This document shows, in pieces, positions 23,850-47,456 of a stretch of DNA of 64,000 nucleotides. Source of the stretch: Trueperaceae bacterium (GTDB lineage Bacteria > Deinococcota > Deinococci > Deinococcales > Trueperaceae); NCBI GenBank assembly GCA_013697735.1, contig JACCWH010000201.1:1-64000 (forward strand), given 5' to 3'. The translations under genes and the position numbers were made by a program. The notes under the pieces were generated by a model. It was given only the letters and a program-made list of their open reading frames with translations, searched no databases and was not told the origin of the DNA. Every line of letters starts with the position of its first letter. Position 1 is the stretch's first letter.

Positions 23850-25766
23850 TCAGCCGTGCCCGAGCGTCGAGAGGAACTCGGCGTTGTCCTTCGTGCGGTT
23901 GAGCCGCGAGAGCAGCATCTCCATCGCCTCCGAGGCGTCCATGTCGGAGATGACCTTCCGCAGCAGCCACATCTTCGCGAGGATGTCCTCGCCGAGCAGC
24001 AGGTCCTCGCGGCGTGTACCCGACTTGAGGATGTCGATCGCCGGGAAGATGCGACGCTCCTCGAGCCTGCGCGACAGGTGGAGTTCCATGTTGCCGGTGC
24101 CCTTGAACTCCTCGAAGATCACGTCGTCCATTCGCGAGCCGGTCTCGACGAGGGCCGTTGCGAGGATCGACAGCGATCCCCCGCCCCGGATGTTGCGCGC
24201 AGCGCCGAGGAAGCGCTTCGGCCAGTGGAGCGCGTTCGAGTCGAGTCCACCGGACAGCGTCCGGCCGGTCGCCGGCGTCACCAGGTTGTTGGCGCGAGCG
24301 AGCCGCGTGATGGAGTCGAGCAGGATCATCACGTCGCCGCCATCCTCGACGATTCGACGTGCGCGCTCGTGCACGAACTCCGCTACGCGAATGTGGTTCG
24401 CGGGCGGCTCGTCGAAGGTGCTGGCGATCACTTCGACGCCATCGACGCTCTCGCGGAAGTCCGTGACCTCCTCGGGGCGCTCGTCGACGAGCAAGACGAT
24501 GACCTTGATCGACGGCTCGTTGGTCACCACGGACTTGGCGATCGCTTTGAGCAGCGTCGTCTTACCGGCCTTCGGCGGCGCGACGATGAGCCCGCGCTGT
24601 CCGCGCCCGATGGGGGCGAGGAGGTCGATCACTCGCGCCGACAACTCGTTGACGGTCGTCTCCAGCTTGATTCGCCGATCGGGGAACGTCGGAACGAGAT
24701 CGTCGAAGCGTGGGCGTTTCGCTGCCTGGAACGGATCGACCCCGTTGACGGCCTCCACACGGATGAGGGTGCCGTAGCGTTCGTTGTCGCGCGGACGGCG
24801 CGCCTTGCCCATGATGGCGTCGCCCGTGCGGAGCTTGAACTGCTTGATCAGACCGGCGGAGACGATGACGCTGCGCGTGTTGTTCTGCAGCAGCGACTCC
24901 TGCAGGAACCCGTACCCATCCGACGAGATCTCCAGATAGCCGCTCACCAGTCGCAGCCCCTCGGCCTCCGTCGACCGCTCGAGGATCGCCTGCACGAGGT
25001 CTTCCTTCTCCATCTCGCGGAAGGCGTCGAGCCCGACCTCCTTCGCGAGGAGGTGGAGCTCAGGCACGATCTTGCCGGTCAGGTCGCGATAGTTCATCCC
25101 CGCTTTGCGCTGACCCCCACGGTTTCGGCGCGAACGCTGCTGCTGCCGATCCCGGCCACCGTCGCGCCCGTCACGGGAGTCGCCACCGTCGTCGCCACTT
25201 TCGTCGCGGCCATCGTCGCGGCCTTCGTCCCGGCCCTCCTGGCGAGCGTCCGCATCGCGTGCCTCGGCACGCCCGTCGGCCCCATCCGACGCTCGGTCGT
25301 CATCCGTGCGACCATCGCCGTCGTCGCGAGCGGCGCCGCGTCCACGACGCTGCCGCCGAGCACCCGACGCGCTCTCGCCGTCGCCGCCGGCTGCGCTCTC
25401 GCCGTCGCCGGCCGCTGCGGGCGCGACTGCGGCGGATGCGCCGTCGTCGCTCCGGGCGGCGCGCGACGACTTCGCCCGCGACGAAGACTGCGCTGGAGCG
25501 GACGTGCTCGTGGCGACCGCGTCCTCGGTCGGCGCCGCCTCGCTCGGAGCGCCCCCGCGCGCCGCCGTGCCCTTCGGCGCCCCGTCGCGGGGCGCGACGT
25601 CGTTCGTGGCCGTGTCGGCGACGGGGACCTTGCGGGGTCGACCGCGCTTCTTCGGCGGCGCTACCGTCTCGGCGACGGCGGTGTCGGCGACGGCAGCATC
25701 GGCGACGGCAGTATCGGCGTCGCCCGTGCCTTCGGCGTCGGTCTTCTTGCGTGCTCGTGGACTCAT
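23850..25766 (-). CDS. rho: transcription termination factor Rho with long disordered N-terminus
   Basis: 638-aa RNA-dependent ATPase that releases transcripts. Residues 1 to about 223 form a low-complexity region: VAD/TAV repeats, a KKRGRPRK AT-hook-like motif, Ala/Ser-rich stretches and an Arg/Gly/Asp-rich segment. The regular Rho fold starts near residue 224 (MNYRDLTGKIVPEL) with Rho_N, the RNA-binding cold-shock-like domain, Walker A (PPKAGKTTL, about 395-403) and the VDERPEEVTD motif. The start at MSPRARKK has GAGGAG upstream. Such extensions are known in some actinobacterial Rho proteins and add RNA binding; a similar role here is inferred. Confidence 0.95.
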   Translation of the reverse strand: MSPRARKKTDAEGTGDADTAVADAAVADTAVAETVAPPKKRGRPRKVPVADTATNDVAPRDGAPKGTAARGGAPSEAAPTEDAVATSTSAPAQSSSRAKSSRAARSDDGASAAVAPAAAGDGESAAGGDGESASGARRQRRGRGAARDDGDGRTDDDRASDGADGRAEARDADARQEGRDEGRDDGRDESGDDGGDSRDGRDGGRDRQQQRSRRNRGGQRKAGMNYRDLTGKIVPELHLLAKEVGLDAFREMEKEDLVQAILERSTEAEGLRLVSGYLEISSDGYGFLQESLLQNNTRSVIVSAGLIKQFKLRTGDAIMGKARRPRDNERYGTLIRVEAVNGVDPFQAAKRPRFDDLVPTFPDRRIKLETTVNELSARVIDLLAPIGRGQRGLIVAPPKAGKTTLLKAIAKSVVTNEPSIKVIVLLVDERPEEVTDFRESVDGVEVIASTFDEPPANHIRVAEFVHERARRIVEDGGDVMILLDSITRLARANNLVTPATGRTLSGGLDSNALHWPKRFLGAARNIRGGGSLSILATALVETGSRMDDVIFEEFKGTGNMELHLSRRLEERRIFPAIDILKSGTRREDLLLGEDILAKMWLLRKVISDMDASEAMEMLLSRLNRTKDNAEFLSTLGHG

Positions 25767-25965
25767 GGTACTCCTCGGAAAAGGGTCAGCAGGTACCTGA
25801 CGGGGGGCGCCGCCGGCGTGGCGGCGCGGAATATCGGAGCGTCTCGGACGCGGTTCCGGTCGGTATGCGTGCGGACTGAGGACGCGATTCGCTGTACCCC
25901 ACACCTGTGCACGCGCTCTGCAAGTACCCGGCCGGACAGGTTGTTCGAGGAGGTGCAGTGGCGTC

Positions 25966-26128: not shown

Positions 26129-26414
26129 GGGGGAACGAGTACGCGACTGCGAGTCCCAGGAGCGAGCCGGGGGCGGTGCGAGCCCGGCGGCAGACCGATC
26201 GCGGAAGATCCTCCCCCAGCCGCGCCTTCGAACCCGGCCGTGCCGTCGGCACGACCGTGCAGTAGTCGGCGCCGCGCGACGCGCGACACAGCGTCATCGC
26301 AATCGCTCGGGTACGCACCGGGTGGCGGCGAACGAGGGTGATCCCGCGAGGGGCACCGAAGTTGGGTGGTACCGCGCTCACCGGCGCCCCAACGCGACGT
26401 CGCGAGGGGCGCCG
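26129..26414 (+). promoter_or_regulatory. T-box riboswitch (Ile-type) upstream of ileS
   Basis: Leader RNA that senses uncharged tRNA-Ile. Stem I base: GGGGG (26129-26133) pairs with CCCCC (26213-26217). It contains the AGTA loop motif (26138-26141), the distal GAG bulge (26164-26166) and GGTGCGAG (26175-26182). CGCGA (26142-26146) pairs with TCGCG (26199-26203), leaving the Ile codon ATC (26208-26210) in the specifier loop. The T-box TGGTACCGCG is at 26367-26376. The antiterminator folds exactly: GTTGGG (26361-26366) with CCCAAC (26388-26393), 7-nt TGGTACC bulge, GCG with CGC. The bulge UGGU matches an A73-CCA tRNA end. A competing hairpin (26382-26414, 9-bp outer stem) uses the same CGCCCC strand. 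Stem II/III are not resolved. Confidence 0.93.
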
Positions 26415-26427
26415 TGTCCGTGAGGCA

Positions 26428-26463
26428 CACCTCCACGTCGACACCCAGTACGCCACGGAGGTG
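26428..26463 (+). promoter_or_regulatory. Shine-Dalgarno-sequestering hairpin of ileS
   Basis: CACCTCC (26428-26434) is fully complementary to GGAGGTG (26457-26463), the ileS ribosome site. The 7-bp stem would hide it. Following directly on the T-box, this suggests the switch can act on translation as well as, or instead of, termination. Confidence 0.6.
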
Positions 26464-26467
26464 GCCA

Positions 26468-29400
26468 GTGAACGCGCCGTTCCTCGAGGTCCCGAGCGAC
26501 CTGCACATGCCCGACGTCGAACGCGACGTCCTCGCGTTCTGGAAGCGCACGCGCATCTTCGCCCGCACGCTCGACAAGCCGGCTCCGAAGGGCCCCTGGG
26601 TCTTCTACGAGGGTCCGCCGACCGCCAACGGGCTCCCCGGTGTCCATCACGTCAGTGCCCGCGCCTTCAAGGATCTCTTCCCACGCTTCAAGACGATGCA
26701 GGGGCATCGCGTCGGCCGCAAGGGAGGGTGGGACACGCACGGCCTCCCGGTCGAGATCGCGGTGGAGAAACAGCTCGGCATCACCGACAAACGGCAGGTC
26801 GAGGACTACGGCATCGTCGAGTTCAACCGCCTCTGCCGCGAGATCGTCTTCTCCAACATCAAGGACTGGAACGCGTTGACCGATCGGATCGCCTATTGGG
26901 TCGACCTCGAGGACGCCTACGTCACCTTCGAGAACGACTACATCGAGTCGTGCTGGTGGGTGATGAAAGCGCTCTTCGACCGCGGCCTGCTCGAGGAGGA
27001 CTATCGCACCACCTGGCATTCGCCCTCGTCGAACACCACGTTGGCCTCGCACGAGGTGTCGCTCGGCTATCGCGACGACACCGTCGACCCGAGCGTCTTC
27101 CCGCTCTTCCGCGCCGACGAGGACGACCTCCGCGCGCGCGGCCTGCTCGGCCACGACGAGGAGCGGCCGGTCGCCTTCATGGCCTGGACCACCACGCCGT
27201 GGACGCTGCCGGCGAACACCGGGCTCGCCGTGCTCCCGCACGCGACGTACGCCTTCGTGGCCGGTCCCGAGCGCCGTGGCGGGAGCGGCGCGAGCGCCCT
27301 GCACGTACTCGCCGCCGACCTCGTTTCGAGCGTCTACGGCGACACGCCGCACGAGATCGTGGCGACGGTGTCTGGATCGGAACTCGTCGGCGTGCGCTAC
27401 CGACCGATCATGCACGGACGGCTCGAAGGCGATTCCGAGGTCGAGGGGGCGAGCGGTTGGCGGGTGGTCGGCGACGACTTCGTGACGCTCGACGACGGCA
27501 CCGGGGTCGTGCACCTCGCGCCCGCCTACGGCGACCTCGAGGTGGGGCGACGCCACGGCCTGCCGACCGCGTGGTCCGTCGACCTCACCGGTCAGGTCGT
27601 GTCGGAGGTGCGCCCGACCGACCACGACGCCGGGGGCGACGGACCCTACACAGGCATCTGGTTCAAGGACGCCGACGCCGCCATCACCAGCGACCTCGAC
27701 GCGCGCGGCGCGATGTTCGCCAGCACCACGATCACCCACACCTATCCCTTCAATTGGCGCGACGGCAAACCGCTCATGAACGTCGTCAAGAAGAGCTGGT
27801 ACATCCGCACGAGCCGCTTCCGCGACCAGCTCCTCGCCACCAACGACGCCATCGGCTGGCATCCCGATCACGTGCGCACGGGACGCTTCGGCCGTTGGCT
27901 CGAAAACAACGTCGACTGGGCGCTCTCGCGCGAGCGCTTCTGGGGCGCGCCGCTGCCGATCTGGCAGGGGGACGACGGCTCGTTCGTCTGCGTCGGCAGC
28001 GTCGCGGAGCTCGCGGAGGCCGCCGGACGCGACCTCACCGGCCTCGACCTCCACCGACCGTACGTCGACGAGATCACGTTCGTCCGGGACGGCGTCAGCT
28101 ACCGCCGTCTCCCCTACACCGTCGACGTCTGGTTCGAATCGGGCGCCATGCCCTACGCGCAGTGGCACTTCCTGGGCGAGGAGGGAGCTGCCGCCGAGGC
28201 GCTCGAGCGGAACTTCCCCGCCGATTTCATCTGCGAGGCGATCGACCAGACGCGCGGGTGGTTCTACAGCCTCCACGCCCTCGGCACGTTGCTCACCCAC
28301 GACGGCTCCGCGGGCCTCCCGCGCGGCCCCCTCGCCGACCTCGCCCCCAACACCAGCGCCTTCAAGAACGTGATAGTGCTCGGGCACATCGTCGACGAGA
28401 AGGGCGAGAAGATGTCGAAGTCGAAGGGGAACGTGGTCGACCCCTTCGACGTGCTCGACGCGCAAGGGGCCGATGCCCTGCGGTGGTACCTCTACGCCTC
28501 CAGCCCGCCCGAAGCGACGAAGCGATTCAGCCAGGCGCTCGTCGACGAGACGCTCCGCGACTTCTTCATGACGCTGTGGCACACGACGGGCTTCTTCACG
28601 CTCTACGCGAACCTCGACCGGCCCGACCTCGCGAACGTCCCGGGGGTGGCGCAGCGACCCGCGATCGACCGTTGGCTCGTGTCGCGCGTCCACAGCCTCG
28701 TGCGCGACGTCACGGCCTCGCTCGAAGGGTTCGACGCGACGAACGCGTGCCGCGCGGTGCGCGACTTCGTGGTCGACGAGCTGTCGAACTGGTACGTGCG
28801 CCGCAACCGGCGCCGCTTCTGGAAGGGGGACGCCGGCCCCGACGCACTCGCCGCCTACGGCACGCTCTACGAGACACTCGTGATCGTCACCAAGCTCATC
28901 GCCCCGATGGCGCCGTTCACGAGCGAAGCGCTCTACCAGAACCTCGTGCGGCAGCAAGACGAGGGGGCGCCCGAGTCCGTCCATCTGGTCGACTGGCCCA
29001 CCTTCGATGCTGCGCTCCTCGACGAGGAGCTCATGCGCGACATGGCGGTGTTGATGCGGGTTGTGGAGCTCGGTCGATCGGCCCGCGCGTCGAGTGGGCA
29101 CAAGGTCCGGCAACCGCTCCCGGAGGTGCTGGTGCGAGTCCGCAGCGCGGAGGAGGCGCGTGGACTGGCGCGGCTCGAGGATCAGCTCGCCGACGAGCTG
29201 AACGTGAAGTCGGTGCGGTTCCTCGACGTCACCGCCGACTTCGTCGACTACACCGTCAAACCCAACCTGCCGCTGCTGGGCAAGCGCTTCGGCAAGCGCA
29301 TCCCTGCGCTCCGCGCGGCGCTCGACGCGATGGACGGCCGCGAGGTCGCACGCCTCGTCCGCGAGGGACGGCCGATCGTGCTCGATCTCGAGGGCGAGCG

Positions 29401-29800
29401 GGTCGAACTCGATGGTGCAGCCGTCCTCCTCGACGCCCGCTCGCCCGAGGGGTACGTCGCGGTGGAAGACCGCGGCTACCTCGCTGCGCTCAACACCGCG
29501 CTCACCCCGGCGCTCGTTCGCGAGGGCACGATGCGCGACGCGGTGCGGCTCGTGCAGGATGCGCGCAAGCAGGCGGGCCTCGCCGTTTCCGACCGCATCG
29601 TGCTCGGCCTCGAGACCGAGGGTGCCGAGACCGGCGCTGCGCTCACCGAGTATCGCGACGCGGTGGCGCTCGAGACCCTCGCCACGGCGGTGCAAGCAGG
29701 CGCGGTGGCGCCCGCCCTCGTCGACGTGCGGGTGCCGCTCGGCGACGGCTCGGTTCGCATCACGCTGCGCCGTGCCGAGGGCGAGGGACGGGTCGACTGA
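26468..29800 (+). CDS. ileS: isoleucyl-tRNA synthetase
   Basis: 1110-aa class I synthetase that charges tRNA-Ile. The signature HIGH region reads PGVHH (about 57-61), within GPPTANGLPGVHH; this variant also occurs, from memory, in actinobacterial-type enzymes. The CP1 editing domain contains AWTTTPWTLPANTG, and KMSKS is at about 647. The anticodon-binding region has VDELSNWYVRRNRRRFW, placing it in the longer eukaryal-like (IleRS2) clade, members of which are often mupirocin-resistant. GTG 26468 is chosen because GGAGGTGG precedes it and the leader before it is the T-box. Confidence 0.95.
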   Translation: MNAPFLEVPSDLHMPDVERDVLAFWKRTRIFARTLDKPAPKGPWVFYEGPPTANGLPGVHHVSARAFKDLFPRFKTMQGHRVGRKGGWDTHGLPVEIAVEKQLGITDKRQVEDYGIVEFNRLCREIVFSNIKDWNALTDRIAYWVDLEDAYVTFENDYIESCWWVMKALFDRGLLEEDYRTTWHSPSSNTTLASHEVSLGYRDDTVDPSVFPLFRADEDDLRARGLLGHDEERPVAFMAWTTTPWTLPANTGLAVLPHATYAFVAGPERRGGSGASALHVLAADLVSSVYGDTPHEIVATVSGSELVGVRYRPIMHGRLEGDSEVEGASGWRVVGDDFVTLDDGTGVVHLAPAYGDLEVGRRHGLPTAWSVDLTGQVVSEVRPTDHDAGGDGPYTGIWFKDADAAITSDLDARGAMFASTTITHTYPFNWRDGKPLMNVVKKSWYIRTSRFRDQLLATNDAIGWHPDHVRTGRFGRWLENNVDWALSRERFWGAPLPIWQGDDGSFVCVGSVAELAEAAGRDLTGLDLHRPYVDEITFVRDGVSYRRLPYTVDVWFESGAMPYAQWHFLGEEGAAAEALERNFPADFICEAIDQTRGWFYSLHALGTLLTHDGSAGLPRGPLADLAPNTSAFKNVIVLGHIVDEKGEKMSKSKGNVVDPFDVLDAQGADALRWYLYASSPPEATKRFSQALVDETLRDFFMTLWHTTGFFTLYANLDRPDLANVPGVAQRPAIDRWLVSRVHSLVRDVTASLEGFDATNACRAVRDFVVDELSNWYVRRNRRRFWKGDAGPDALAAYGTLYETLVIVTKLIAPMAPFTSEALYQNLVRQQDEGAPESVHLVDWPTFDAALLDEELMRDMAVLMRVVELGRSARASSGHKVRQPLPEVLVRVRSAEEARGLARLEDQLADELNVKSVRFLDVTADFVDYTVKPNLPLLGKRFGKRIPALRAALDAMDGREVARLVREGRPIVLDLEGERVELDGAAVLLDARSPEGYVAVEDRGYLAALNTALTPALVREGTMRDAVRLVQDARKQAGLAVSDRIVLGLETEGAETGAALTEYRDAVALETLATAVQAGAVAPALVDVRVPLGDGSVRITLRRAEGEGRVD

Positions 29801-47428: not shown

Positions 47429-47456
47429 CGAGGGCGGGAGTTTCCTCCCGCCCTCG
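47429..47456 (-). terminator. intercistronic 12-bp hairpin after livK
   Basis: Perfect 12-bp GC-rich stem (47429-47440 with 47445-47456, loop TTTC), 51 nt after the livK stop. No U-tract follows on the minus strand, so partial termination or mRNA protection is likely. The rest of the 47227-47506 gap holds only a minus-strand TAGGAT (47343-47348) that could be a weak -10 for livHMGF. Confidence 0.6.

Follow-up and report, generated by a model that had tools for sequence, protein, structure and literature searches.

T-boxes of the Thermus/Deinococcus group are already described in the literature (PMC3766115), and Wels et al. (2008) listed an ile T-box, with an ile-tRNA ligase as its target, for Deinococcus radiodurans (PMC2494555). 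The ileS T-boxes that act on translation come from Actinobacteria, and their stem I is truncated (PMC1262725, PMC7583486). The leader analyzed here lies 5' of ileS in a window of 64,000 nucleotides, i.e., the whole stretch of DNA from a Trueperaceae bacterium under study, and its features are collected in Table 1. It resembles class I T-boxes (RF00230, ileS type) in having a stem I with AGTA/GAA and the distal loop motif, a specifier, stem II, a IIA/B pseudoknot, stem III, a UGGN bulge, a mutually exclusive antiterminator and hairpin, and a position 5' of ileS, while its U-poor terminator tail and an RF00230 match below the gathering score set it apart. With the ile T-box of D. radiodurans it shares the phylum and the kind of target gene (ile-tRNA ligase), but the window comes from another family, the Trueperaceae, and the likeness is drawn from the published listing. 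The ileS target, the Ile specifier, the IIA/B pseudoknot and an SD-complementary leader strand are common to the locus and the actinobacterial class II ileS T-boxes; in the latter, however, stem I is truncated and lacks the distal loop motif, whereas stem I in the window is complete and carries GGTGCGAG. The initial annotation had regarded a leader with both outputs in a probable Deinococcota member as noteworthy; an ileS T-box in Deinococcota is not noteworthy in itself, since this type of switch is already known in the phylum: it was listed for D. radiodurans in 2008, and RF00230 matches were found in 57 of 61 genomes (the window's genome and 60 relatives).

Table 1 Features of the ileS leader and the ileS gene in the window
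Feature	Positions	Strand	Basis
T-box stem I, with AGTA (26138-26141) and distal loop motif GGTGCGAG (26175-26182)	26131..26215	+	RF00230 positions 15-98; covariation in helices 1-3
Specifier codon ATC (Ile), followed by C	26208..26210	+	Place in the RF00230 alignment
Stem II with CGAA/AGTAG S-turn-like motif	26222..26272	+	Helix 4: 96.9% of cells paired, compensatory changes in 4/5 pairs
Stem IIA/B pseudoknot (CGCG/CGCG and GACG/CGTC)	26273..26295	+	Helices 5 and 6: 93.9% and 95.5% paired, double changes
Stem III	26337..26357	+	Helix 7: 7/7 pairs doubly changed, 74.9% paired
Antiterminator GTTGGG (26361-26366)/CCCAAC (26388-26393) and GCGC/GCGC (26374-26377/26384-26387) around the T-box bulge TGGTACC (26367-26373), which holds UGGN	26361..26393	+	RF00230 positions 183-216; R1; helices 8 and 9: 96.5-100% paired
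Terminator-type hairpin GGCGCCCC (26383-26390)/GGGGCGCC (26406-26413)	26383..26413	+	Conserved in Trueperaceae with covariation; homologues in lower-GC members and order-level relatives carry U-runs
Hairpin GTGTC.CGTG.AGG/CCT.CACG.GACAC, which would mask the anti-SD strand	26414..26444	+	Folding only
Potential SD-sequestering helix CACCTCC (26428-26434)/GGAGGTG (26457-26463)	26428..26463	+	Sequence
ileS, isoleucine--tRNA ligase, GTG start	26468..29800	+	TIGR00392, 832 bits (cut-off 621)

At the Rfam gathering score, no entry other than tRNAs was found in the window. A relaxed threshold revealed two colinear RF00230 pieces in the ileS leader, at 26131-26215 (model positions 15-98, 26.6 bits, genome-wide E 7.7e-4) and 26359-26391 (model positions 183-216, 21.4 bits), which were the only matches in the whole 3.5 Mb genome assembly. 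The RF00230 search proposed in the initial annotation thus placed all matches of the genome in the leader, although both remained below the gathering score of 93 bits; the accompanying idea that a missing RF00230 match speaks against the switch proved misleading, the T-box being real even though its match lies below that score. A covariance model of the T-box 3' half (R1), built from 32 relatives with the window left out, recognized positions 26260-26394 with 99 bits (E 3.3e-23), while the runner-up in the window reached 19 bits, and genome-wide the ileS leader was found with an E of 1.8e-21. The leader before ileS is a genuine isoleucine T-box riboswitch, far beyond chance. The original description was right on this point: the Ile T-box 5' of ileS is complete, it includes an antiterminator/terminator pair, and it belongs to a member of Deinococcota. 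Genome-wide searches with RF00230 and R1 revealed no convincing second T-box in the window's genome.

Many of the RF00230 matches among the 61 genomes sit immediately 5' of ileS, and eight relatives exceeded the cut-off of the model (best E 2.5e-25), several of them with the match directly 5' of ileS. In five cases (G002:C65, G018:C305, G040:C33, G048:C26 and G044:C430), the T-box is located ~1.3-4.3 kb upstream of ileS on the same contig, as if a gene had been inserted between the two or shared the leader. Several Trueperaceae (G015:C79, G016:C32 and others) possess a second T-box 5' of a valS-like gene, which is a distant IleRS match.

To describe the fold, 33 Trueperaceae ileS leaders were aligned (alignment A2) with a 44-pair structure comprising stem I, stem II, stem IIA/B with its pseudoknot, stem III and the antiterminator. 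Across these leaders, 90.5% of the cells were paired. Compensatory changes on both sides were present in 30 of the 44 pairs, whereas shuffles gave 19, and covariation scored 0.353, with 0.146 for the shuffles; sliding the partner by 1-3 columns lowered the pairing to 40-47%. Stem I is composed of the base helix GGGA/TCCC, the AGTA/GAA specifier-loop motif, the helix CGCGA/TCGCG and the distal stem GCCGG/CCGGC. Every motif named in the initial annotation occurs where it had been placed, except that the inner antiterminator helix is one pair longer (GCGC/GCGC) than the GCG/CGC given there. In the ileS T-boxes L098, L100-L102, L107, L109, L111, L113 and L114 (genera g7 and g8) and in L089, the AGTA half of AGTA/GAA is replaced in an otherwise conserved T-box; these leaders may have a different fold of the specifier loop or be less specific.

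The ATC specifier is kept in all 33 aligned leaders, and it matches both the downstream synthetase gene, ileS, and the genomic tRNA-Ile(GAT). This tRNA ends in ACCA; its anticodon and end fit ATC and the UGGU of the T-box bulge. The base following the specifier is C in most Trueperaceae leaders and A in the others, so the C in the window, which had been singled out as an oddity, is ordinary for the family. As for the encoded enzyme, its best solved match is the Thermus thermophilus IleRS (1ile). Outside Trueperaceae, its identity is mostly 52-55% to other Deinococcota, 55% to the best actinobacterium and 38-45% to most actinobacteria. The earlier label of an actinobacterial-like IleRS is not upheld by these values, in which Deinococcota are about equal to the best actinobacterium, and an actinobacterial origin of the enzyme is not indicated by the best matches.

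A key question is how this T-box acts on ileS. The competing hairpin, previously given as 26382-26414, is indeed present at 26383-26413, covaries in Trueperaceae and overlaps the antiterminator 3' strand; GCGCCCC is common to both structures, which are thus mutually exclusive. Its stem of 8 G-C pairs is fully retained in the window, and it is followed by the tail GTGTCCGT, with 3 U in 8 bases, which falls short of a class I U-run. In lower-GC Trueperaceae, the homologous hairpin precedes a U-run (e.g., GGGGCGCTTTTTTG in G014 and GGGGCGTTTTTTG in G010), and order-level relatives typically have a U-rich tail. The higher the GC of the leader, the lower is the U content (Spearman -0.49, p 0.007; the relatives are not independent of one another). 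Termination may be inefficient at a GC-rich hairpin that is not followed by a U-run. A terminator scan that needs 5 T in 8 bases gave no hit in the region of the leader, nor was a sigma-70-like promoter recognized in this region. Base rates for the genome were taken from samples of about 280-380 kb, in which 33 hairpins after gene ends had 0-4 T in the first 8 bases. Because the other strong hairpins sampled in this genome also lack U-runs, the U-poor tail is ordinary for it. Judged from the sequence, the 26383-26413 hairpin is best read as an inherited T-box terminator whose tail is degenerate but normal for the genome, and we infer that it still terminates transcription despite this tail.

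Tails with dispersed U residues in place of U-runs (e.g., TCGTCGTCGTC, TCGTGTTGG and TCTCGTGTGG) were observed on several strong hairpins of this genome, at 492-528 and 47429-47456 of the window and in L148, L155 and L187. Tails with this type of motif made up 9%, versus 2% at random places; the sample was small, and the motif had been picked after inspection of the data.

The predominance of U-poor hairpin tails in the sampled part of the genome is also compatible with another scheme, in which the polymerase pauses at the hairpin and is then released mainly by Rho, with the T-box fold as the gate. A rho gene is present as the divergent neighbor of ileS; however, rho is nearly universal, so its presence says little, and the conserved hairpin stem fits hairpin-driven termination. 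We consider Rho as the main agent unlikely. The rho gene (window positions 23850-25904) adjoins ileS in divergent orientation, and its product has a long low-complexity N-terminal extension.

Another important question is whether the leader also controls translation. The CACCTCC/GGAGGTG helix proposed to cover the ileS ribosome site is present in the sequence, with its SD strand ending 4 bases 5' of the GTG start. The only same-genus relative among the genomes compared, G001 (IleRS N-terminus 85% identical), has an SD helix of 9-10 bp despite a changed spacer length; a version with G-U pairs occurs in G034 and G026, and some g8 members have other SD hairpins. Across Trueperaceae, the SD was not paired more than in shuffled spacers, and most other relatives likewise show no such excess. 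In the window itself, 7% of the dinucleotide shuffles of the spacer closed the SD at least as well. Among the 53 genes with a GGAGG SD that were sampled in this genome, seven form a helix of at least 7 bp with the preceding 50 bases. Taken alone, the SD helix does not clearly exceed chance expectation. It was rejected both as a rare feature, given the seven sampled genes, and as a conserved sequestrator, since it is restricted to G000, G001 and G034/G026 with no family-wide excess over shuffles.

The U-poor tail and the SD helix, which is found in the genus and also in part of g12, could be taken to mean that the terminator decayed in high-GC lineages and was replaced by the SD helix as the expression platform of a purely translational T-box, as in actinobacterial ileS, where SD sequestration is the mode of action (PMC1262725). 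Yet the terminator stem is wholly kept, most U-poor relatives lack excess SD pairing, and stem I is full-length, unlike that of actinobacterial class II. In addition, translational T-boxes need a sequestrator that shares a strand with the antiterminator, and the SD helix has none. We regard a purely translational switch as very improbable indeed.

Because the two structures share no strand, any coupling between the SD helix and the T-box must be indirect. A candidate relay is the 26414-26444 hairpin. In the terminator state, CTCAC (26377-26381) would pair with a downstream GTGAG and break this hairpin, which would free CACCTCC for closing the SD; with the antiterminator formed, the SD would open instead. 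The T-box state would in this way set both termination and SD access. We strongly doubt a dual output of this kind.

SD opening was predicted by folding with the antiterminator or the terminator forced, at varied transcript 3' ends. For RNA ending at the start codon, the predicted opening was 0.52 with the antiterminator versus 0.00 with the terminator, and for ends at, or 6 bases past, the GTG start it ranged over 0.52-0.70 versus 0.00-0.04. These short transcripts agree with a dual output, as does the maintenance and lengthening of the SD helix in G001. With at least 12 coding bases, however, the sign was reversed: from +18 on, the opening was 0.00-0.06 with the antiterminator and 0.40-0.64 with the terminator (0.01 versus 0.40 with 18 coding bases; 0.00 versus 0.52 with 60). 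In G001, the 26414-26444 hairpin is not visible, the GTGAGG element is absent, and the SD is predicted to be closed in both T-box states at nearly all transcript lengths. SD pairing also shows no family trend. By folding, the 26414-26444 hairpin and the SD helix are nearly equal in energy (-12.3 versus -13.7 kcal/mol), which would explain the unstable prediction.

SD access was therefore rejected as a function of the T-box state, its sign depending on the transcript 3' end. In class II T-boxes, the sequestrator replaces the terminator and excludes an antisequestrator, whereas in the window no strand is common to the SD helix and the antiterminator, and predicted SD access does not consistently follow the T-box state. 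The suggestion that the leader combines transcriptional and translational outputs thus gains no consistent support, as the SD helix does not occur beyond the genus and part of one other genus, and SD access is untied to the T-box state; the helix exists but is not supported as an output of the switch. It is best seen as a feature in its own right, restricted to certain lineages, whose effect in either state would at most be to lower the translation of read-through mRNA. Its retention and greater length in G001 leave room for a translation role. A genus-level two-tier control, in which a weak U-poor terminator is combined with an SD helix steered by the 26414-26444 relay hairpin on read-through transcripts, is quite improbable.

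The leader is probably a class I isoleucine T-box that controls ileS by transcription attenuation, with a U-poor tail. Because this tail lacks the class I U-run, class I is the likeliest mode rather than a proven membership. In such a mechanism, the ATC in stem I would read the tRNA-Ile anticodon, and stems II, IIA/B and III would assist in placing the tRNA. When the tRNA is uncharged, pairing between its ACCA end and the bulge TGGT would hold the antiterminator, allowing the polymerase to read into ileS; with charged tRNA, the GGCGCCCC/GGGGCGCC hairpin would form and transcription would stop early. Termination at the U-poor tail may be helped by Nus factors or Rho. The sequence data show the conserved and covarying T-box fold, the specifier with its matching tRNA-Ile, and two structures that exclude each other; the response of the leader to tRNA is an inference.

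A dual output would matter if true, but the evidence does not support it. The data document that ileS T-boxes are nearly universal among Trueperaceae and related genomes; many of these T-boxes, including that of the window, are missed at the Rfam gathering score. Moreover, Trueperaceae have leaders with canonical U-runs as well as leaders with eroded tails, which makes a test of T-box termination at high GC possible.
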